64,000 nt of DNA, taken from contig CABYIV010000002.1 in NCBI GenBank assembly GCA_902519255.1, positions 17,501 through 81,500 on the forward strand, given 5' to 3'. Position 1 is the first letter of the stretch, and the number at the start of each line of letters is the position of its first letter. The DNA is from an uncultured Pelagibacteraceae bacterium (GTDB taxonomy: Bacteria; Pseudomonadota; Alphaproteobacteria; Pelagibacterales; Pelagibacteraceae). Positions 27,656-42,404 of the stretch are shown here, one piece after another. The notes under the pieces were generated by a model. That model was given only the letters and a program-made list of their open reading frames with translations. It made no database searches and was not told the DNA's origin. The position numbers were made by a program, and so were the translations under genes.

Positions 27656-28981
27656 ATGAAAAATCATATAGAAATTAAAAGTTTAATTAAACCCTTCAAA
27701 GAAAAAATTGAGGTGAGTGCTGATAAAAGTATTTCAATTAGAAGTGTCCTGTTGGCATCTCAGGCAATCGGTAAATCTAAAATATATAATTTATTAGAGT
27801 CTGAAGATGTTCTGCACTCTTTAAAAGCAATAAAAAAACTTGGCATCAATTATAAAAAAAATAAAAATTGTTATGAAATAGAGGGATTTGGGATAAATGG
27901 ATTTAAAATTGAAAGAGAAAAAAATATATATGCTGGAAATTCAGGAACACTTGCTAGATTGATTGCGGGTTTACTTGTAAATGCAAAAAAAAAAGTAAAA
28001 ATAACTGGTGATGAAAGTTTATCAAGAAGAGATTTTACAAGAATAACAGAACCTTTAAAATACTTTGGGGTAAATATAAAAACAAAAAATAACGGGTTAC
28101 CTCTTACTATTATTGGATCTGATTATTTAAGACCTATTAATTATACTGAAAACTTAGGAAGTGCTCAGTGTAAAAGCTCTGTAATGTTTGCAGCAATAAA
28201 AACTTCTGGTATTACAAAGATAAAAGCCAAAAAATCCAGAGATCATACAGAGTTATTTTTTAAAAATCTTAATATTCCTATAAATATCTCTAAAAAAAAA
28301 AAATATGATATTATTCGTGTAAAAGGACCATCCAATTTTAGAGGATTTTCTTATAACGTGCCAGGAGATATAAGCTCGTGTTCTTTTCTTTTGGTTTTGA
28401 CTCTGCTTTCAAAAAAGTCAGAGATTACAATAAAAAATGTAAATGTAAATAGAACTAGGATAGGGATTATAAAAATTTTAAATATGATGAAAGCAAAAAT
28501 AATTTTTAAAAATAAAAAAATCTATAGAGGAGAAGAAATTGCAGATATTTTTGTTAAAAGCAAAAATAAACTTGTGGGAGTAAATTGCCCTGAAAGTTTA
28601 AATAGTTCTGCAATAGACGAATTTCTGGTTATTTTTTTAGTTGCTGCAAAAGCAAAAGGGGTATCAACTTTTCGAAATTTAGGAGAATTAAATAAAAAAG
28701 AAAGTCCAAGATTAAATATTGCTTTAGATTTTTTGAAAATGATTGGAATAAAATTTTTAAGAAATAAAGATAATATTAAAATTTTTGGAAATCCAAATAT
28801 AAAATTAAGTAACAAATATACAGTCAAAAATTTTCGGAAAGATCATAGAATATTTATGATGTCGTGTATTGCAGCTTTGACCTTTGGAGGAAAGTGGATA
28901 ATTCATGATAAAAATTCAATTAATACTTCTTTTCCAAATTTCTTAAAAAAAATTAGAATGTTAGGTGGTAAAATAATTTGA
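27656..28981 (+). CDS. aroA: 3-phosphoshikimate 1-carboxyvinyltransferase (EPSP synthase)
   Basis: Sixth step of the shikimate pathway. The N-terminal ADKSISIRSVLLAS, the PEP-loop GNSGTLARLIAGLL and the LGSAQCKSSVMFAA motif are clear. Other motifs are SRDHTELF and FRKDHRIFMMSC. Length 441 is normal. It sits 7 nt after lptB (the largest gap in this run) and its stop overlaps the cmk start (TTGA). The order aroA-cmk-rpsA-ihfB is conserved in proteobacteria. Confidence 0.95.
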   Translation: MKNHIEIKSLIKPFKEKIEVSADKSISIRSVLLASQAIGKSKIYNLLESEDVLHSLKAIKKLGINYKKNKNCYEIEGFGINGFKIEREKNIYAGNSGTLARLIAGLLVNAKKKVKITGDESLSRRDFTRITEPLKYFGVNIKTKNNGLPLTIIGSDYLRPINYTENLGSAQCKSSVMFAAIKTSGITKIKAKKSRDHTELFFKNLNIPINISKKKKYDIIRVKGPSNFRGFSYNVPGDISSCSFLLVLTLLSKKSEITIKNVNVNRTRIGIIKILNMMKAKIIFKNKKIYRGEEIADIFVKSKNKLVGVNCPESLNSSAIDEFLVIFLVAAKAKGVSTFRNLGELNKKESPRLNIALDFLKMIGIKFLRNKDNIKIFGNPNIKLSNKYTVKNFRKDHRIFMMSCIAALTFGGKWIIHDKNSINTSFPNFLKKIRMLGGKII

Positions 28982-29646
28982 AAAAAAGAAAAAAAATTAT
29001 TACAGTAGCAATTGATTCACCGGCAGCTGCAGGTGCTGGTACGCAGGCAAAACTTATAGCTAAGCACTATAATTTATTGTATTTAGATACAGGAAAAATA
29101 TACCGCCTATTTGGCAAAATTAGACTAAATAACAAAGAAAATTTTACATACAAATTAGTAAAAAAAGAGATAAAAAATTTAAAATTTAAAGATCTTGATA
29201 AAAAAGAATTATTAAATGACAATGTCGCGGTCTCAGCATCAATAATAGCAAAAAATTTTGAAATAAGGAAAATTATTAAAAAATTTCAATTAAAGTGTGC
29301 ATTTAATCCGCCAAGAAATTTTGTTGGCTCGGTTTTAGATGGAAGAGATATAACCTCAGTGATAATGAAAAAGGCTATGTTTAAATTTTATATTACTGCA
29401 AATTTAAAAATAAGAGCTAAAAGAAGACATTTAGAATTTAAAAAGTTAAAAAAAAAAATATCATATAAGGAAGTCTTAAAAAGCTTAAAAAATAGGGACT
29501 ATTTAGATAAAAATCGCAAATATAGCCCACTTAAAAAAACCAAAGATTCAATCTTGATTAATACCACTAAATTAAGTAAGAAAGCCTGCTTTATGAAAAT
29601 AAAAACTATAATGGACAAAAAATTGCAATTTAATGGAAATTTATAA
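28978..29646 (+). CDS. cmk: Cytidylate kinase with altered P-loop
   Basis: Phosphorylates CMP/dCMP. The fold is recognisable from AIDSPAAAGAGTQAK, YLDTGKIYR, LDGRDITSVIM, the arginine-rich LID (RAKRRHLEF) and NRDYLDKNRKYSPL. The ATP-binding P-loop, usually PAxSGKGT, reads PAAAGAGT (residues 15-22): the lysine position is Ala20. All other blocks are in place, so this is probably a working enzyme with changed nucleotide handling, not a decayed gene. Start codon is TTG at 28978, overlapping the aroA stop. Length 222. Confidence 0.88.
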   Translation: MKKRKKIITVAIDSPAAAGAGTQAKLIAKHYNLLYLDTGKIYRLFGKIRLNNKENFTYKLVKKEIKNLKFKDLDKKELLNDNVAVSASIIAKNFEIRKIIKKFQLKCAFNPPRNFVGSVLDGRDITSVIMKKAMFKFYITANLKIRAKRRHLEFKKLKKKISYKEVLKSLKNRDYLDKNRKYSPLKKTKDSILINTTKLSKKACFMKIKTIMDKKLQFNGNL

Positions 29647-31652: not shown

Positions 31653-32319
31653 AAATAAAATATTTATTGCATGTGATACAACAAGTACAAAAAGAATTAA
31701 CAGCATATTAAAATATACAAAATCTAGTAAGTTAAAGATTGGTTATAAATTTGGATTAGAGTTTTTAAATTCTAAAAATGGTAGGGGATTTATTAAGAAG
31801 CTAAAGAATCAAATTACTTTTGGAGATTTTAAGTTTTCGGATATTCCTAACACATGCTCCTCTGCTATTAAATCGGTCAGTGATTTGAAATTTGATTATA
31901 TAACTATACATATTAATTCAGGGTTTGAAGCTCTTAGAGAAGCAAAAAAAGCTGCAGGTAAAACAAAACTAATTGGCGTTACAATATTAACTTCATTAGA
32001 TAATAAAGCTATTAAAGAAATCGGATTTAGTAAAAATATAAAAGAATTAGTTCTTCATCAAGCAAAATTAGCAACTAAAGCAAAATTGGATGCTATAGTA
32101 TGTAGTGCTCAAGAAGCTAAAATAGTAAAAAAAGTATTTAAAAAAGAAATAATAACTCCTGGAATAAGATTTAGTTCAAAAATAAATGATCAAAAAAGAA
32201 CTTTATCTCCTAAACAAGCTTATAGAAATGGTGCAGATTGGTTAGTAATTGGAAGAGACATTACTAAAGGCAATATCAAAAAAAATGTTCAAACATTAAT
32301 TGATCACTTAAATCAATGA
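31645..32319 (+). CDS. pyrF: Orotidine 5'-phosphate decarboxylase
   Basis: Last step of UMP synthesis. The catalytic block is FGDFKFSDIPNT (D-x-K-x-x-D-I-P-x-T, near residues 61-72), followed by GVTILTS, the phosphate-binding TPGIRF and GADWLVIGRDIT. Length 224 fits the bacterial group. It overlaps ihfB by 8 nt and trpF by 4 nt. Confidence 0.95.
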   Translation: MNKNKIFIACDTTSTKRINSILKYTKSSKLKIGYKFGLEFLNSKNGRGFIKKLKNQITFGDFKFSDIPNTCSSAIKSVSDLKFDYITIHINSGFEALREAKKAAGKTKLIGVTILTSLDNKAIKEIGFSKNIKELVLHQAKLATKAKLDAIVCSAQEAKIVKKVFKKEIITPGIRFSSKINDQKRTLSPKQAYRNGADWLVIGRDITKGNIKKNVQTLIDHLNQ

Positions 32320-32933
32320 TCAAAGGTTTGAAAATTTGTGGGATCTCAGATCCTAAAACTTTAAACTATATTTTAAATCATCCATATCCGCCAAATTATG
32401 TAGGTTTCATTACAAATTATAAAAAAAGCAATAGGTATGTTGAATTTCAAAAGTTAAAAGAATTAATTAAAGTTGATAAAAAAAAATTAAATTTTATTTC
32501 AGTGCTTGTTGATCCCGATGACGAAATTTTAGAAAAAATTAAGGATTTTAATTTTGATTATTATCAACTATATGACGTTACGCCTGAGAGAACCAAAGAA
32601 ATTAAATCAAAATACAAAATTAAAATAATAACAGCAATTACTGTATCTGAAAGATATGATGTAATTAAATATAAAGATTATTTAGAGATCTCAGAAATAA
32701 TTTTATTTGACTCAAAAGGTTACCATAAATCTGAAAGTTTTGATCATAGTCTTCTAGATGAAGTGCCTAAAAAATTGAACAAAATGATTGCAGGAAATAT
32801 ACAAATAGAGGATATTCCTAATTTTAGAGACAAAGATTTTATAATAGACCTTAGTGGATCACTAGAAGATGCTAATGGAAAAAAGGATATAAATAAAATT
32901 AATAGATTGTTAAATTTGTTTGCAAACATATGA
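32316..32933 (+). CDS. trpF: Phosphoribosylanthranilate isomerase (divergent)
   Basis: Third step of tryptophan synthesis from anthranilate. The catalytic Cys in LKICGISDP near the N-terminus and the catalytic Asp in ILFDSKG are conserved. The phosphate region is KKSNRYV in place of the usual PKSPR-V, and the loop normally reading QLHG-E is QLYDVTPERT. The C-terminal phosphate motif reads LSGSLEDANGKKD. Length 205. It sits between pyrF and trpB with ATGA overlaps on both sides. Assignment is strong from context, moderate from sequence. Confidence 0.85.
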   Translation: MIKGLKICGISDPKTLNYILNHPYPPNYVGFITNYKKSNRYVEFQKLKELIKVDKKKLNFISVLVDPDDEILEKIKDFNFDYYQLYDVTPERTKEIKSKYKIKIITAITVSERYDVIKYKDYLEISEIILFDSKGYHKSESFDHSLLDEVPKKLNKMIAGNIQIEDIPNFRDKDFIIDLSGSLEDANGKKDINKINRLLNLFANI

Positions 32934-34174
32934 AAATTAAAAAAAAAATTCCACTAATTGATCAGGCAAGCAAACTTGGCTTTTGGGGTGGAAAGTTTGG
33001 AGGTAACTACGTTCCAGAAACATTGAAAAAGCCAATAGAAGATCTAGAAATTCTATTCAATAAATTAAAAAATGACAAAAGATTCATAGCTGAAAGAGAT
33101 AAATATTTTAAAAATTGGGTTGGTTCTCCTACTCGTTTTATAAAGTTAGAAAATCTAACAAATCATGTGGGCGGAGCTCAAATTTGGTCTAAAGTTGTAT
33201 CAGACGCAAATGGAGGAGCACACAAAATATACAATGCTACCGTACATTGTCTACTTGCCAAAAGATCTGGTAAAAAATTTATAATTGGGGATACGGGCGC
33301 TGGTTATGCAGGCAAAATGTTAAGCATGGCCGCTAAAAAATTTGGATTAAAATGCAAAATTTTCATGGGTGCAAAAGATATTGCAAGACAACAGCCCAAT
33401 GTAAAAGCTATGAAAAAAAATGGAGCTGAAGTAATACCTGTATACTCAGGAAGTCAAACACTTGTTGATGCTGTTTCTGAATGTATGCGATACTGGGTTG
33501 CTAATTGCGATACGACAGCAATGTGTGTTGGCAGTACAGTAGGACCAGCCGTCTTTGTTCGTATTTGTGGATGGAGTACTAGCCAAATTTCAAGAGAACT
33601 AAAAGTGCAATTAATTGATGAGTTTGGGTCAATACCAAAAAAGCTAAAACTTTATAACTGTGTTGGCGGCGGAAGCTCAAGTTTTGGTTTTTGGAACGAA
33701 TTTATGGATTATGATAAAAAACAATGTGAATTTATTGGTGTAGAAGCTGGTGGACCTGCAAAAAGTAAAAAGCATGCAGCACCTCTAACTTATGGTTCAA
33801 AAATTGGAATTCTTCATGGTGCAGCTCAATATGTTAATCAAGATTTGGATGGACAGATAGAAGAAACTGAGTCAATTTCTGCTGGACTTGATTATCCAGG
33901 AATTTCTCCACTACATTGTTTTTTAAAAGATACTAAACGAGCAAGATATACCGCAGCAACCGATGAAGATGCTTTAAACGCATATAAAACTGTAACAAAA
34001 TTCGAGAAATTAAGGCCTTCTCTTGAACCAAGTCATGCTTTTTCAATTGCAATAAAAGAAGCAAAAAAATTAACCAAAGATACTATAGTGGTAGTTAATA
34101 GTTGTGGTGATGCATACAAAGATCGAGAAATTTTAATAAAAAGATTAGGTAAAAAATATGTTGAACCCAATTAG
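32930..34174 (+). CDS. trpB: Tryptophan synthase beta subunit homologue with rewritten active-site motifs
   Basis: PLP enzyme expected to join indole and serine. The N-terminus (FGGNYVPETL) and the PLP lysine K99 in GGAHKIYNAT are clear. Several canonical blocks differ: KREDLNHTGAHK is KVVSDANGGAHK; AETGAGQHG is GDTGAGYAG, so the catalytic Glu position (22 residues after the lysine, as in Salmonella K87/E109) is Asp121; GSVAGPHPYP is GSTVGPAVFV; GGGSNA is GGGSSS; the C-terminal SGRGDKD is SCGDAYKD. SAGLDYPGISP is kept. Length 414 is normal. It overlaps trpF by 4 nt and trpA by 17 nt. Either a strongly diverged TrpB or a relative with altered chemistry. Confidence 0.82.
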   Translation: MKIKKKIPLIDQASKLGFWGGKFGGNYVPETLKKPIEDLEILFNKLKNDKRFIAERDKYFKNWVGSPTRFIKLENLTNHVGGAQIWSKVVSDANGGAHKIYNATVHCLLAKRSGKKFIIGDTGAGYAGKMLSMAAKKFGLKCKIFMGAKDIARQQPNVKAMKKNGAEVIPVYSGSQTLVDAVSECMRYWVANCDTTAMCVGSTVGPAVFVRICGWSTSQISRELKVQLIDEFGSIPKKLKLYNCVGGGSSSFGFWNEFMDYDKKQCEFIGVEAGGPAKSKKHAAPLTYGSKIGILHGAAQYVNQDLDGQIEETESISAGLDYPGISPLHCFLKDTKRARYTAATDEDALNAYKTVTKFEKLRPSLEPSHAFSIAIKEAKKLTKDTIVVVNSCGDAYKDREILIKRLGKKYVEPN

Positions 34175-34958
34175 TCTAGCTTTTAAAAAAGCAAAACAAG
34201 AAAATAGAGCTGCTCTATTAACTTATACTGTTGCAGGTGATAGCTCGAAAAAACAATCATTAGATATATTAAATTCAATTTCAAAAAATGCGGATATTTT
34301 AGAATTAGGTGTACCGCACAACACTCCAGTTGCAGATGGTAGTCAAATTCAAACAAGTGCATATAGAGCGATAAAAAATGGAATTAAAATGAATGATATT
34401 TTTAAAATTGTAAAAGACTTTAAAAAATTAAATAAAAATAAACCAATTATATTGATGGGTTATTATAATATGATTTTTCAATACGGAGAAAATAGATTTT
34501 TAAGTAAATGTAAATCTTCAGGTGTAAATGGATTAATAGTTGTAGACTTGCCCTGGCCTGAAAATAAGGATTTTGCTAAAAAATGTAAAAAAGAATCTAT
34601 CTATTTTATACAGCTTTTATCACCAACTACTTCAGAACAGAGGCTTAAAAAAATTATAAGAGATTCTCACCCTATGAATTATTTTATTTCAATGCTAAGC
34701 ACAACAGGTGGTAAACTAAAAGTATCCCCAAAAAGTATACTTAAAAATTACAACAAAATAAAAAAAATTAACCCAAAAAAAGAAATTGTTATTGGTTTTG
34801 GAATCACAGAAAAAACGATTGGTAAACTCAAATCTGCGGATGGATTAGTTGTTGGAAGCGCTATTTGTAAGGAAATTACCAAGAGTTTAAGGCATAGACA
34901 AAATCCTGTCACAAATGTAAGTAAACTAGTAAAAAAATTAAAAAGTAAAATTCTATGA
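34158..34958 (+). CDS. trpA: Tryptophan synthase alpha subunit homologue (divergent)
   Basis: Should release indole from indole-3-glycerol phosphate and pass it to TrpB. The catalytic Glu49 and Asp60 are retained at exactly the Salmonella positions (LELGVPHNTPVADGSQIQ), but the usual FSDP is HNTP and PTIQ is SQIQ. The loop-6 region, normally S-R-x-G-V-T-G, reads SMLSTTGGK. The phosphate motifs GFGI and GLVVGSAI are good. Length 266. It overlaps trpB by 17 nt and accD by 4 nt, so stoichiometric coupling with the equally divergent beta subunit is likely. Confidence 0.84.
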   Translation: MLNPISLAFKKAKQENRAALLTYTVAGDSSKKQSLDILNSISKNADILELGVPHNTPVADGSQIQTSAYRAIKNGIKMNDIFKIVKDFKKLNKNKPIILMGYYNMIFQYGENRFLSKCKSSGVNGLIVVDLPWPENKDFAKKCKKESIYFIQLLSPTTSEQRLKKIIRDSHPMNYFISMLSTTGGKLKVSPKSILKNYNKIKKINPKKEIVIGFGITEKTIGKLKSADGLVVGSAICKEITKSLRHRQNPVTNVSKLVKKLKSKIL

Positions 34959-35887
34959 ACTGGATTACAAAAGCTTTAAGTTTTGGGGAGAAAATTAAAA
35001 AAGTTTTAAAAAAAAGACCATCAAAAGAGGACATAGCAAACTCAGACTGGACTAGTTGTTGCAAAGGCCCAATATTAAAAAAAGATCTTGAAGAAAATTT
35101 ATGGGTTTGTAACTCGTGTGGTAAACATCATAGAATTAATTGTCGACAAAGATTTGATATTATTTTTGGAAGAAATGCTTACGAAATACTTGATACACCA
35201 ATTCCTGCAGAAGATCCTCTTGGATGGGTAGATACAAAATCTTATAAAGACAGATTAAAATCTGCACGAAAAAAAACCAATCAAAATTCAGCTGTGATGA
35301 TTGCTAAAGGAAGAATAAATGGAATCGAAGTGACAGCTGGAGCAATAAATTTTGAGTTTATTGGTGGTTCTGTTGGAGCTGCAGAAGGTGAAGCAATTAT
35401 TTATGGTGTTCAACACGCTATTGATAATCAAACACCATTTGTTTTCTTTCCTTGTGGTGGTGGACAAAGAATGTTCGAGTCTCCTATTGCGCTTGCAAAT
35501 ATGACAAGAACTACTCTTGCTATTAATGAACTTAAAAAAAATAATCTCCCCTATTTAGTCTGTTTTACTGATCCTACCGCTGGTGGAATTACAGCATCAT
35601 TTGCAATGTTAGGAGACATTCATTTTGCTGAACCAGGTTGTTTGATAGCCTTTGCGGGAAAAAGAGTTATACAAGCAACAGTTAAGGAGGAGCTTAGTTC
35701 TGACTTCCAAACCTCTGAGTTCGTTGAAAAGCATGGATTTGTAGACAGAATTGTTGAACGAAAAGATTTAAAAACAGAAATAAGCTTACTATTATCAATA
35801 TTGTTAAAAAAAGATAATGCGGTAAATGAAAAGCAAATTGATGAAACTTCAGACAATATTGAACCGCTTGCAAAAGCTGCATCCTAG
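34955..35887 (+). CDS. accD: Acetyl-CoA carboxylase carboxyltransferase, beta subunit
   Basis: Partner of AccA in making malonyl-CoA. An N-terminal Cys-rich segment (SCCKGPILKKDLEENLWVC and CGKHH) is the zinc-ribbon region. The carboxyltransferase core shows GAINFEFIGGSVGAAEGEAI, GGGQRMFESP, and FTDPTAGGITASFAMLGD. Length 310. The trpA-accD-folC order is the normal alphaproteobacterial one. folC starts inside its 3' end. Confidence 0.96.
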   Translation: MNWITKALSFGEKIKKVLKKRPSKEDIANSDWTSCCKGPILKKDLEENLWVCNSCGKHHRINCRQRFDIIFGRNAYEILDTPIPAEDPLGWVDTKSYKDRLKSARKKTNQNSAVMIAKGRINGIEVTAGAINFEFIGGSVGAAEGEAIIYGVQHAIDNQTPFVFFPCGGGQRMFESPIALANMTRTTLAINELKKNNLPYLVCFTDPTAGGITASFAMLGDIHFAEPGCLIAFAGKRVIQATVKEELSSDFQTSEFVEKHGFVDRIVERKDLKTEISLLLSILLKKDNAVNEKQIDETSDNIEPLAKAAS

Positions 35888-37106
35888 AGAAATTGATCTA
35901 AGCCTTAATAGAGTTAAGAAACTTTGTGAGAAATTAGGTGATCCACAAAAAAGATTAAAATATATATCAGTCGTTGGTACAAATGGTAAGTATTCAACGA
36001 TACAGGCAATACGATCAATTTTAAAAACTGCAAATATAAATTGCAATATATATACAAGCCCACATATTCAAAAAATAAATGAGAGATTTATCTTTAATGA
36101 TGAAGAATTATCTGACAATGACTTATCTAATTTATTAATAGAGGTAGAAAATATAAATGATGGTGAACAGATAACTTATTTTGAAATATTAACTGCAGCA
36201 TATTTTTATTATGCAAGTAAATTCAAAAACAAAATAAATATTTTAGAAAGCGGTCTATTTCATAGATTTGATGCAACAAATATTATAGATACTAATTTAT
36301 CTAGCATTGTTACTTCAATAGGTTTAGATCATTTAGATTGGTTACCAAAAAACGAGAAGAATATTGAAAAAATTGTTTATGAAAAAACTTCATCCCTAGT
36401 GAATTCTACTATTGTAGTTAGCAAACAAAGCTCAGATGAAACATTAAATTTAATAAAAAAATCAATTATTAATAATCAATCAAAAAAAATCATTTATAAA
36501 GATGATTTTAATTATTTATTAAATGAGAATGGTTTTATTTATTATGAAGATGAATATGGTGGTTTAAAATTACCAAAACCAAATCTTTTAGGTAATTTTC
36601 AAATTGATAATTGTGCGACAGCTATTGCTACAGTAAGAAATTTACAACTAGGAGTGAAAGATGAAAATATTAAACAAGGCATTACGAGGATAAAAAGTAT
36701 TGCAAGACTACAAGAAATTAAATCTGGAAAACTAAAAAATATTTGTAAGTATAATAAACTATATTTAGATGGTTCACATAATCCTCTTGGTGCAGTTGCC
36801 CTAAATGATTATTTAAATACTATTAATTGTAAAAAGCATTTAGTTCTTGGTATGATGTCTAATAAAGATCACGAAGAATATGTAAGCAAATTTAATAATA
36901 TATCTTCCATAACAACCATAGATATTCCTAACCAACCAAATGCTATCAAAGGAAAAGATTTAAAGGAAAAATTAAATAAATATTCTAATGTTAGTTACAA
37001 AAAATCTATTGAAGAAGCTCTTGACTCTATAAATCTAGGTAAAGATGATTTGATAATGATAACCGGGTCTTTATATCTCGCTGGTGAGCTACTTAATTTG
37101 AATTAA
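35841..37106 (+). CDS. folC: Folylpolyglutamate / dihydrofolate synthase with altered motifs
   Basis: Adds glutamate to dihydropteroate or folates. The start MKLQTILNRLQKLHPREIDL matches the family; an in-frame ATG 15 nt upstream is possible. Overlap with accD is 47 nt. Conserved landmarks are TSPHIQKINERF, FDATNIIDTN, LDHLDWL, YLDGSHNPLGA and GSLYLAGE. Three usually invariant spots differ: the P-loop GTNGKGS is GTNGKYS (residues 46-52), GLGGR is GLFHR, and EKAGI is EKTSSL. The P-loop lysine itself is kept. Its stop shares TTAA with that of the convergent trxA. Confidence 0.9.
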   Translation: MKLQTILNRLQKLHPREIDLSLNRVKKLCEKLGDPQKRLKYISVVGTNGKYSTIQAIRSILKTANINCNIYTSPHIQKINERFIFNDEELSDNDLSNLLIEVENINDGEQITYFEILTAAYFYYASKFKNKINILESGLFHRFDATNIIDTNLSSIVTSIGLDHLDWLPKNEKNIEKIVYEKTSSLVNSTIVVSKQSSDETLNLIKKSIINNQSKKIIYKDDFNYLLNENGFIYYEDEYGGLKLPKPNLLGNFQIDNCATAIATVRNLQLGVKDENIKQGITRIKSIARLQEIKSGKLKNICKYNKLYLDGSHNPLGAVALNDYLNTINCKKHLVLGMMSNKDHEEYVSKFNNISSITTIDIPNQPNAIKGKDLKEKLNKYSNVSYKKSIEEALDSINLGKDDLIMITGSLYLAGELLNLN

Positions 37107-37423
37107 ATATTTTCTTTAATAAAAGCAACAATATCGCTCTTAGGTGTAGCTCCAACTTTAGTTGCTTTTAATTCGCCACCTTTAAATAAAAGCATTGTAG
37201 GAATTCCACGAACACCGTACTTAGTAGGCATGTTAGGCTCTGAGTCTATGTCATGTTTTGCAATGACTATGTCGTTCGCCATCTCCTCTGAAATTTCCTC
37301 TAAAATTGGTCCTACCATTTTACAAGGTCCACACCATTCGGCCCAAAAATCTACTAAAACTGGTTTTTCGTTTTTTAAAACTTGTTCTTCAAATTTTTCG
37401 TCTGTAACTTTTAATGTTGCCAT
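37103..37423 (-). CDS. trxA: Thioredoxin
   Basis: Small redox protein of 106 residues with active site WCGPC (near residues 31-35) and the cis-proline loop GIPTML. It lies convergent to folC, the same neighbourhood as in other alphaproteobacteria, where addA usually follows upstream; here that position holds sbcB and two other DNA-processing genes. Confidence 0.97.
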   Translation of the reverse strand: MATLKVTDEKFEEQVLKNEKPVLVDFWAEWCGPCKMVGPILEEISEEMANDIVIAKHDIDSEPNMPTKYGVRGIPTMLLFKGGELKATKVGATPKSDIVAFIKENI

Positions 37424-40894: not shown

Positions 40895-41566
40895 TTAAAA
40901 CACTTTTAAGAGTTCTACCTCTTTATTTTTTTTTGGGGTCATTAAACACGCTTGGGATTTAAGAATTATTCCATCTTTTAATATCCTTAATTTATTAGCT
41001 TTTAAGGTTGCTCCTGTTGAAGTTATATCAGTTATAATTTCTGATGATCCAGTAAATGGATATATCTCTGTAGCACCAAGACTCTTTACCAATTTAAATT
41101 GTGTAACTCCTCTTGTGAACATAAATTCTCTAGTTAGATTAGGATATTTTGTAGCTATACGTAATCTCTTTCTTTTTTTATCTTTAAATTCAAAAGCTAT
41201 TTCTTCAAGATCAGGCATTGTCTGTACATCTATCCAATCATCTGGAATTGCAACTACCAATGTAGCCTCTCCAAAATTGTACTTTTTTTTTACAATCACC
41301 TTTTTTTGAATATTAATTTCGCTTTCCATTAATAAATCATATCCAGAAAAACCAATATCTAAAGATCCATCTGCAAGACGTTCTACTATCTCCCTAGCAT
41401 GAAGATAATAAATAACTATATTTTTTTTTCCTTTGATAAATCCAAATAAGTCTCTTTCACCTCTTTCAGATAGAATTTTTAATTTCTTTTTTTTAAAAAT
41501 ATTTAATACTCCAGACCGTAAACGACCTTTACTTGGAATTCCAATTTTAATGATGTTGTTACTCAT
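40895..41566 (-). CDS. hisG: ATP phosphoribosyltransferase, catalytic subunit (short form)
   Basis: First step of histidine synthesis. At 223 residues it is the short HisG, lacking the C-terminal regulatory domain and so needing HisZ, which is encoded nearby. Motifs include GIPSKGRLRSG, DIGFSGYDLLMES, IATKYPNLTREFM and GATEIYPFTGSSEIITDITSTG in two parts. It is last in hisS-hisZ-sulfotransferase-hisG, overlapping the sulfotransferase by 8 nt. Confidence 0.93.
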   Translation of the reverse strand: MSNNIIKIGIPSKGRLRSGVLNIFKKKKLKILSERGERDLFGFIKGKKNIVIYYLHAREIVERLADGSLDIGFSGYDLLMESEINIQKKVIVKKKYNFGEATLVVAIPDDWIDVQTMPDLEEIAFEFKDKKRKRLRIATKYPNLTREFMFTRGVTQFKLVKSLGATEIYPFTGSSEIITDITSTGATLKANKLRILKDGIILKSQACLMTPKKNKEVELLKVF

Positions 41567-42404
41567 ATTTATATTTTACCAATTCTTCTTGAAATAAATT
41601 GTTCATTTTGTTTATTAAATTCTCATTAAGTAATTTCCTATAATCATTATCTTTTCCTAAATTAAAAAATTTTATTTTTTCGTCTGATCCTTTTTTTGTA
41701 ATTGCTTCTGTAAAACCTTTTTCGTCCTCTAGTTTTTTCAAATTATTAAAATTGCAATTTCTTATACATTTTAATGCTTTTTCTTTATTAAATTTTTCAT
41801 CTGATTTAGAAATTTTATGAATGAAGTTAATAACTTGTTTAAAAGTATTTAGTGCATCACTTTGTAGATCTTCATACCTTACAGTTAAAACTGGATATAA
41901 TTTATTATCTACCCATGATTTCTGATTTAACTTCCATGAAAAAAGTGATTGAAATCCTAAAAATCTCTCTTGTTCTTTAGAGACAATTCCTCTTTTTTCA
42001 TCTGTCATAAATTGAAAAGCTTCATCGACAGAAATTTGATAATGATTTGATAATGAAGAGATTACATTTCTTGGGTCTCTTATTATATAAATAACGCCTA
42101 ACGTATTTTCTTTATTAGTAAATTGATTACCATCTATTTTACAAAGAGCATTATGGGTTTTAAAAAATTTCAAACCTTTGGATTGATTAATTTTTTCTTG
42201 CTCCTTTATCCAATACTTTGAAGTATCGTGAGGCTGGTTAAATTTATCTAAATACTTTCTAAAATATTTGTTGCTTGGAAAAGAGTCTATTTTTTCTAAA
42301 AGTTCAAAATTAAAATCACCTGTTTCTGAAAAATAGTAATTTGCTATTAAAGATCTCAACCAAGTATTTCCACTTTTAGGATATGAAGCTAACCAAATTA
42401 TCAT
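41559..42404 (-). CDS. Sulfotransferase domain protein
   Basis: PAPS-dependent sulfotransferase fold of 281 residues. The 5'-phosphosulfate loop is SYPKSGNTWLRSLI (residues 7-20). The 3'-phosphate motif is RDPRNVISS (109-117). KTHNA (82-86) fits the catalytic-region histidine. The substrate is unknown: candidates are a carbohydrate, lipid or small metabolite. It sits between hisZ and hisG with overlaps of 4 and 8 nt, so it is made with histidine enzymes, which is unusual. No signal peptide is evident. Confidence 0.85.
   Translation of the reverse strand: MIIWLASYPKSGNTWLRSLIANYYFSETGDFNFELLEKIDSFPSNKYFRKYLDKFNQPHDTSKYWIKEQEKINQSKGLKFFKTHNALCKIDGNQFTNKENTLGVIYIIRDPRNVISSLSNHYQISVDEAFQFMTDEKRGIVSKEQERFLGFQSLFSWKLNQKSWVDNKLYPVLTVRYEDLQSDALNTFKQVINFIHKISKSDEKFNKEKALKCIRNCNFNNLKKLEDEKGFTEAITKKGSDEKIKFFNLGKDNDYRKLLNENLINKMNNLFQEELVKYKYE

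Follow-up and report, generated by a model that had tools for sequence, protein, structure and literature searches.

A TrpB homologue with rewritten active-site motifs is a lineage-wide variant in SAR11 bacteria

Results

The trp locus

The window, i.e. the whole stretch of 64,000 nucleotides that we analysed from an uncultured Pelagibacteraceae bacterium, carries a trpB homologue flanked by trpF and trpA:

32316 to 32933, + strand: trpF (PF00697, 79.9 bits against a cut-off of 22.7); overlaps the trpB start by 4 nt
32930 to 34174, + strand: trpB, 414 aa, here termed SAR11 type 1; ATG start, intact ORF without frameshift
34158 to 34958, + strand: trpA (PF00290, 222.4 bits; TIGR00262, 214.9 bits against a cut-off of 102.35)

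The intact frame had already been described in a first-pass annotation made from the letters alone, and this was confirmed. By coordinates, trpA shares 17 nt with the 3' part of trpB and 4 nt with accD; trpB thus has a trpA partner in the same operon, as TrpB1 does. The closest single-function model was by far TIGR00263, at 380.7 bits and hence 12 bits below its curated cut-off (392.45), which a near relative (L199; the score is also that of genome G066) exceeded with 403.7 bits. The TrpB2 model TIGR01415 gave 95.5 bits, below its cut-off of 518.85. The best solved-structure match was 5ey5, the reconstructed LBCA TrpB (E 5.9e-101). The listing of solved structures had 46 entries: the top 43 (E≤5.2e-72) were TrpB chains or enzymes derived from them, and the last three had much lower scores.

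The source genome (1.07 Mb, 33 contigs, 83.8% complete) contained a single TrpB match, and the only other PALP protein above cut-off was threonine synthase (TIGR00260, 266.1 bits). The search for another trpB that the first-pass annotation had suggested thus yielded none, in an assembly that is 83.8% complete and from which a second copy could therefore be missing. Eleven single-contig relatives of the family had three or four PALP hits each, one of which had the length and score of TrpB; in the five comparable ones this hit lay at the position of the TrpB match. A second, TrpB2-like match occurred in four of 61 genomes, and the two tested were TrpB2, present alongside the SAR11 trp genes. The genuine TrpB2 genes of these two SAR11 genomes lie at L041, 4789 to 6147, and L042, 4858 to 6216 (TIGR01415, 624 and 636 bits). 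Family search of the source genome located trpC, adjoined by trpG, trpD and the end of trpE, which is cut by the contig edge; these three names were assigned from sequence.

Other genes of the window also showed unusual features. In cmk (28978 to 29646) the CMP kinase P-loop is SPAAAGAGT instead of GPAASGKGT, with Ala for the Walker-A lysine; GAGT occurs in 51 of the loci fetched, a count that includes copies of one genome, and the Lys is kept in L035, L038 and L040, which belong to the other family. The folC P-loop (gene at 35826 to 37106) is GTNGKYS instead of GTNGKGS, and relatives have GTNGKFS, GTNSKAS or GSDGKFT. Close SAR11 relatives carry very different thioredoxin forms, 31–97% identical, at trxA (37103 to 37423). 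A sulfotransferase-like ORF (41559 to 42404), named by eye, had no match in 120-kb stretches of G012 and G066.

Active-site residues

Residue positions are given in enteric numbering, next to those of the window protein in the following list:

33191 to 33226, + strand: KVVSDANGGAHK, ending in the PLP lysine K99 (K87)
33290 to 33292, + strand: Asp121, at the site of the catalytic Glu109
33305 to 33310, + strand: Tyr126-Ala127, at the site of Gln114-His115 in the serine-carboxylate loop
33464 to 33466, + strand: Val179, at the site of β Lys167 on the side facing TrpA
33542 to 33559, + strand: GPAVFV, at the site of GPHPYP (193–198)
33677 to 33679, + strand: Ser250, at the site of Asn236 in the PLP-phosphate motif GGGSN
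33890 to 33892, + strand: Asp321, the retained Asp305
34100 to 34123, + strand: SCGDAYKD, at the site of LSGRGDKD

All motifs of the first-pass annotation (KVVSDANGGAHK, DTGAGYAG, GPAVFV, GGGSSS, SAGLDYPG and SCGDAYKD) were present as given, and Asp121 follows K99 by 22 residues, the spacing of K87 and E109 in E. coli TrpB. One of its readings was correct in part: in SCGDAYKD, Asp for Arg379 is not ordinary in Alphaproteobacteria, but the Cys (S377C) is usual there (26 of 27). Overall, the window TrpB retains K87, H86, T110, R141, N145, R175, S235, D305 and E350. The replacements are E109D, Q114Y, H115A, R148A, K167V, N171S, H195A, P196V, P198V, N236S and R379D, with K167V as an addition to the first-pass annotation. 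E109, Q114, H115, K167, H195, P196 and N236 were found in all 27 other alphaproteobacterial TrpBs, and ETGAGQHG in 8/8 further ones.

The PLP lysine and Asp305 were conserved in 116/116 type-1 sequences; Asp305 is the TrpB1 mark of L-serine use (PMC11917138, excerpt). The same 116 sequences all have Asp at the site of the catalytic Glu109. Since this Glu is replaced, with its carboxylate kept, assignment to TrpB1 is based on homology and context rather than on that residue.

Distribution in SAR11

Because type 1 was initially defined by the motif DTGAG, we repeated the count by identity. The set comprised 162 distinct TrpBs with an adjacent TrpA, from which short, duplicate and TrpA-less rows had been removed beforehand. 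D109 and S236 were present in 116/116 sequences that share 54% or more identity with the window TrpB, and E109 and N236 in 46/46 others (20 from SAR11, 26 from other alphaproteobacteria), which were at most 45% identical to it.

A TrpB match (E≤1e-20) was obtained in 361 of 397 Pelagibacterales genomes, and 341 of these matches were type 1 by best E-value (≤1e-104), most of them by that value and not by residue-level reading. Among the other 20, 19 were read and proved to be type 2 (12), type 3 (five) or canonical (two); the twentieth (G134) clustered by E-value with canonical TrpBs. A sixth type 3 came from the 61-genome set (G017). The type-1 profile (E≤1e-30) matched 181 of 241 alphaproteobacteria, with 818–837 bits in three Pelagibacterales and at most 397 bits in all others. 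A scan of named genomes gave at least 589 relatives, the best 80 of which were all titled Pelagibacteraceae or Pelagibacterales. Within the genomes searched, type 1 looks confined to SAR11. A DNA pattern for Asp109 in otherwise canonical context, blind outside that context, hit ten sites in nine of 397 genomes of the phylum, and none of the eight sites read was a TrpB; the matching Glu pattern hit 357 of the 397. Viral contigs contained no relative detectable with the type-1 profile, and another profile gave one relative of 23% identity.

We also considered real absence of trpB and inspected 21 genomes in which no complete TrpB had been matched: 12 from the 36 unmatched genomes and nine from the 61-genome set. 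Sixteen of them also lacked accD, and in the other five a contig ended inside trpA or accD or right beside accD. True loss of trpB was not demonstrated among these 21.

The first-pass annotation had held that a tree, together with normal activity, would reduce the protein to a lineage-specific variant, and the tree largely does so: the window TrpB groups with other SAR11 TrpBs sharing its changes. We conclude that the rewritten TrpB is a lineage-wide, unusually deep variant and not the oddity of a single strain.

Further types and their exchange

At this operon slot SAR11 bacteria have two or more other trpBA types, which are rewritten in different ways and ~25–40% identical. Type 2 (L033, L034, L036, L147, L148 and L149–L155) keeps E109 and has Q, N or T at position 305 in 12/12; its TrpA has Glu for the catalytic Asp60 in 9/12, as do 2/26 other alphaproteobacteria. 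Type 3 keeps E109 and D305 and has M114 and L167. Type 2 (L033) scored above the TIGR00263 cut-off and type 3 (L037) below it. A TrpB tree built from 60 rows put each of the three types on a starred stem (lengths 1.08, 0.43 and 2.61 for types 1, 2 and 3), and tips of other alphaproteobacteria were ~0.1–0.4 long; given a long-branch warning, we draw nothing from how the types join. In the TrpA tree types 2 and 3 formed single clades, and the type-1 subgroups split once more.

All 29 loci with long flanks were colinear from rpsA to folC. One of them, the type-3 locus L223, has no trpF: pyrF ends 33 nt before trpB, and a TrpF-like start was not found there. We built a tree of rpsA, accD and pyrF from 30 of the 40 SAR11 rows, the other ten being left out for a missing gene. 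Its starred branches force at least five changes each for types 2 and 3. Among 13 pairs hand-picked from this tree, L220 and L037 are 90% identical in RpsA and 96% in AccD, yet 30% in TrpB and 31% in TrpA; L037 and L224 are 97% identical in TrpB and 85% in TrpA, yet 65% in RpsA and 52% in AccD. As a control, the flanking genes were also found to recombine among themselves, and recombination in SAR11 is already known (PMC7542561, excerpt). Over 253 pairs, the identity of flanks and TrpB correlated with rho 0.16, flanking genes with each other at 0.14 to 0.52, and TrpB with TrpA at 0.47. With the flanking genes themselves discordant, this correlation does not single out trpBA, and we dropped it as an argument on its own; the case for exchange is based on the type switches and the trees. 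These demonstrate that trpBA types ~25–40% identical have been exchanged between SAR11 lineages as α-β pairs.

Paired residues within and between subunits

In the enteric enzyme, β Lys167 forms a salt bridge with α Asp56. Both residues lie near β Tyr279 (PMC8187860, excerpt), and changes of α Asp56 matter in the complex only (PMC6608616, excerpt). The relevant part of the window TrpA is:

34302 to 34337, + strand: TrpA E49 to D60; catalytic Glu49 and Asp60 kept, Thr56 for Asp56

Across the 162 pairs, all 40 with K at β 167 had D or E at α 56, and all 122 with V or L had T, A or C; mixed pairs did not occur (0/162). Loss of the charges is restricted to types 1 and 3 and may therefore represent just two events. 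Moreover, ten TrpB and four TrpA columns split these groups as cleanly, 167 and 56 being one column each, so that the match between the joint loss of β K167 and α D56 and a known contact is suggestive but no proof.

Within TrpB, Gln114 of the Salmonella enzyme bonds to Asn145 and Arg148 in the closed state (PMC9512447, excerpt). Loss of Q114 mostly goes along with loss of R148: position 148 is A, S or F in 113/116 type-1 sequences and I in 6/6 of type 3. Three type-1 rows depart from this, having M114 and R148, as do four of type 2, which have A114 and K148. An AlphaFold model computed with 40 close relatives had a mean pLDDT of 41.7 and was set aside.

Selection, pathway context and alternative explanations

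We calculated dN/dS for 60 pairs drawn at random from 80 type-1 loci; the filter required complete genes and a moderate synonymous divergence in trpB. The medians were 0.043 (trpB), 0.102 (trpA), 0.125 (pyrF), 0.147 (accD) and 0.156 (trpF), rough ratios at a median dS of ~1. The value of trpB was the lowest of the five neighbours, and in the comparison with G066 no other window gene examined was as conserved as trpB (78% identity). The first-pass view of selection, not decay, is borne out by this purifying selection and by the fixation of the changes over the clade. Relaxed selection on the way to losing tryptophan synthesis is thus exceedingly improbable. The long type-1 stem (1.08 changes per column) would fit it; the intact frame, the motifs fixed across the order and the dN/dS, which by itself already contradicts decay, do not, and missing copies traced to contig ends in all five cases open to inspection. 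We had also considered decay of a whole block from aroA to trxA and rejected it: most flanking genes were within the ~50–75% identity background of the two relatives compared. Against G012, the outliers are trpB (36%) and trpA (28%), and besides them trxA (38%) and two genes that aligned in part. A riboswitch 'trpB motif' was set aside since it concerns Firmicutes and Fusobacteria (PMC11109978, excerpt). Phages or antimetabolites as a driver of the diversity were weighed too, and nothing pointed for or against them.

The first-pass annotation had proposed either altered kinetics or a different β-replacement reaction. Altered kinetics, we infer, would be compatible with the changes. A move to another β-replacement or elimination, with a different nucleophile or amino acid donor and with tryptophan imported or made otherwise, could account for the alteration of the catalytic Glu109, the serine loop and the GPHPYP loop all together. 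We consider it unlikely: trpF and trpA flank trpB, trpC and its neighbours trpE-G-D are kept, TrpA retains E49 and D60, Asp305 persists, and the genome yielded no other TrpB. G066, which we take to be P. ubique HTCC1062, carries type 1, and this cultured strain very probably does so too. HTCC1062 was grown in artificial seawater with glycine, glycine betaine, pyruvate, DMSP and vitamins, a recipe in which tryptophan is not listed (PMC5069961, excerpt). It is very improbable, too, that the protein is a pseudoenzyme that merely activates TrpA and frees indole, like plant TSB-like proteins. These are altered at the same Glu (E105 in Thermotoga numbering), but carry Ala, Ser or Pro in its place, have Asp386, the equivalent of D305, replaced by Glu, and are extra copies beside a working TSB (PMC12727527, excerpt). 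The window TrpB has Asp at both sites, i.e. keeps a carboxylate at the first, and is the only TrpB found. The best reading of the sequences is that the gene product is a working but rewired tryptophan synthase, and tryptophan is very probably still made by it. Several points weigh against this reading: the TIGR00263 score 12 bits under the cut-off, the effects of E109D and Q114A in the Salmonella enzyme, an assembly that is 83.8% complete, and the TrpB2-like matches in four of 61 genomes.

Discussion

We consider it highly probable, judging from sequence and context, that the window TrpB is the β subunit of the cell's tryptophan synthase and that it has a rewired active site and belongs to a co-evolved α-β pair. 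TrpA would still cleave indole-glycerol phosphate, for which Glu49 and Asp60 do the acid-base work in Salmonella (PMC9512447, excerpt); in type-1 partners these were kept in 116/116 and 115/116, respectively. TrpB would still couple the indole with aminoacrylate from L-serine on PLP at K99, as the kept equivalents of K87, H86, S235, R141 and D305 suggest. Glu109 stabilises the charge at indole N1 in Salmonella, and Arg141-Asp305 maintains the closed state (PMC9512447, excerpt). The shorter Asp121 would replace Glu109 in the contact to indole N1-H and carry this charge, and R141 and D305 are both present in 116/116 type-1 TrpBs. The serine-carboxylate loop and its partner (Q114, H115, R148) and the PLP-phosphate motif (N236) appear to have been repacked, and the facing charged residues between the subunits (β K167, α D56) to have been replaced on both sides. 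The enzyme would function as a co-evolved pair whose two genes are passed on, and exchanged, together.

A broader reading is more tentative, and we rate it as possible but doubtful: SAR11 would maintain a pool of three or more tryptophan synthases that differ deeply, each a co-evolved α-β pair with catalytic and allosteric wiring of its own, swapped as cassettes at a single operon slot and kept for useful differences. Type 1 would have D109 and R141-D305 without K167-D56; type 2, E109 without D305 and, in most, α Glu for D60; type 3, E109 and M114 without K167-D56. If so, an example of such a difference could be the affinity for serine, in cells whose serine supply relies on external glycine, and the 'essential' enteric wiring would be one among several natural solutions.

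Tryptophan synthase serves as a textbook example for catalysis and allostery, and which of its residues count as essential has been judged largely from the enzymes of enteric bacteria and thermophiles. Among the most numerous marine cells are some with natural versions, in matched pairs, that lack the catalytic Glu109, the serine loop, the K167-D56 contact or the D305 bridge. How far each part is needed thereby becomes testable with natural, selected enzymes, which also offer TrpB biocatalysis new scaffolds. Automatic annotation that relies on motif checks would misjudge such genes.

Compared with canonical TrpB1 (TIGR00263; Salmonella, E. coli, LBCA-TrpB 5ey5), the window TrpB has the same fold, length and motif order at ~40% identity and shares the PLP Lys, Asp305, Arg141 and a downstream trpA, but differs in Asp for Glu109, Tyr-Ala for Gln114-His115, Val for Lys167, Ser for Asn236 and the rewritten GPHPYP. 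TrpB2 (TIGR01415) is a fold type II relative, and the 95.5 bits of the window protein are far from the 624–636 of genuine SAR11 TrpB2. In Salmonella, the β exchange E109D strongly reduces tryptophan synthesis. The Q114A enzyme, which lacks the side chain of Gln114, is disturbed in this synthesis as well (PMC9512447, excerpt). Both are laboratory mutants with an otherwise canonical pocket, unlike the window TrpB, which has the same exchange at 109 and has lost Q114 as well. The plant TSB-like pseudoenzyme shares a change at this catalytic Glu, but it is a paralogue without the carboxylate and with Glu for the Asp305 equivalent (PMC12727527, excerpt). In the papers searched, mainly open-access ones, we found no active-site analysis of these SAR11 TrpBs and no account of the D109 change, the β 167/α 56 change or swapped types. 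The unusual SAR11 cluster as such has been known since 2008: HTCC1062 has a single trpB, in an arrangement of trpE-G-D-C and trpF-B-A (Kagan et al. 2008, PMC2395257, excerpt). That trpB_1 cluster, which was taken as functional, comes from the same group of organisms with the same gene order, and is very probably of the same type as the window TrpB. To what the excerpt of that study describes, the present work adds the analysis of catalytic residues and of the subunit interface, together with the further SAR11 types.
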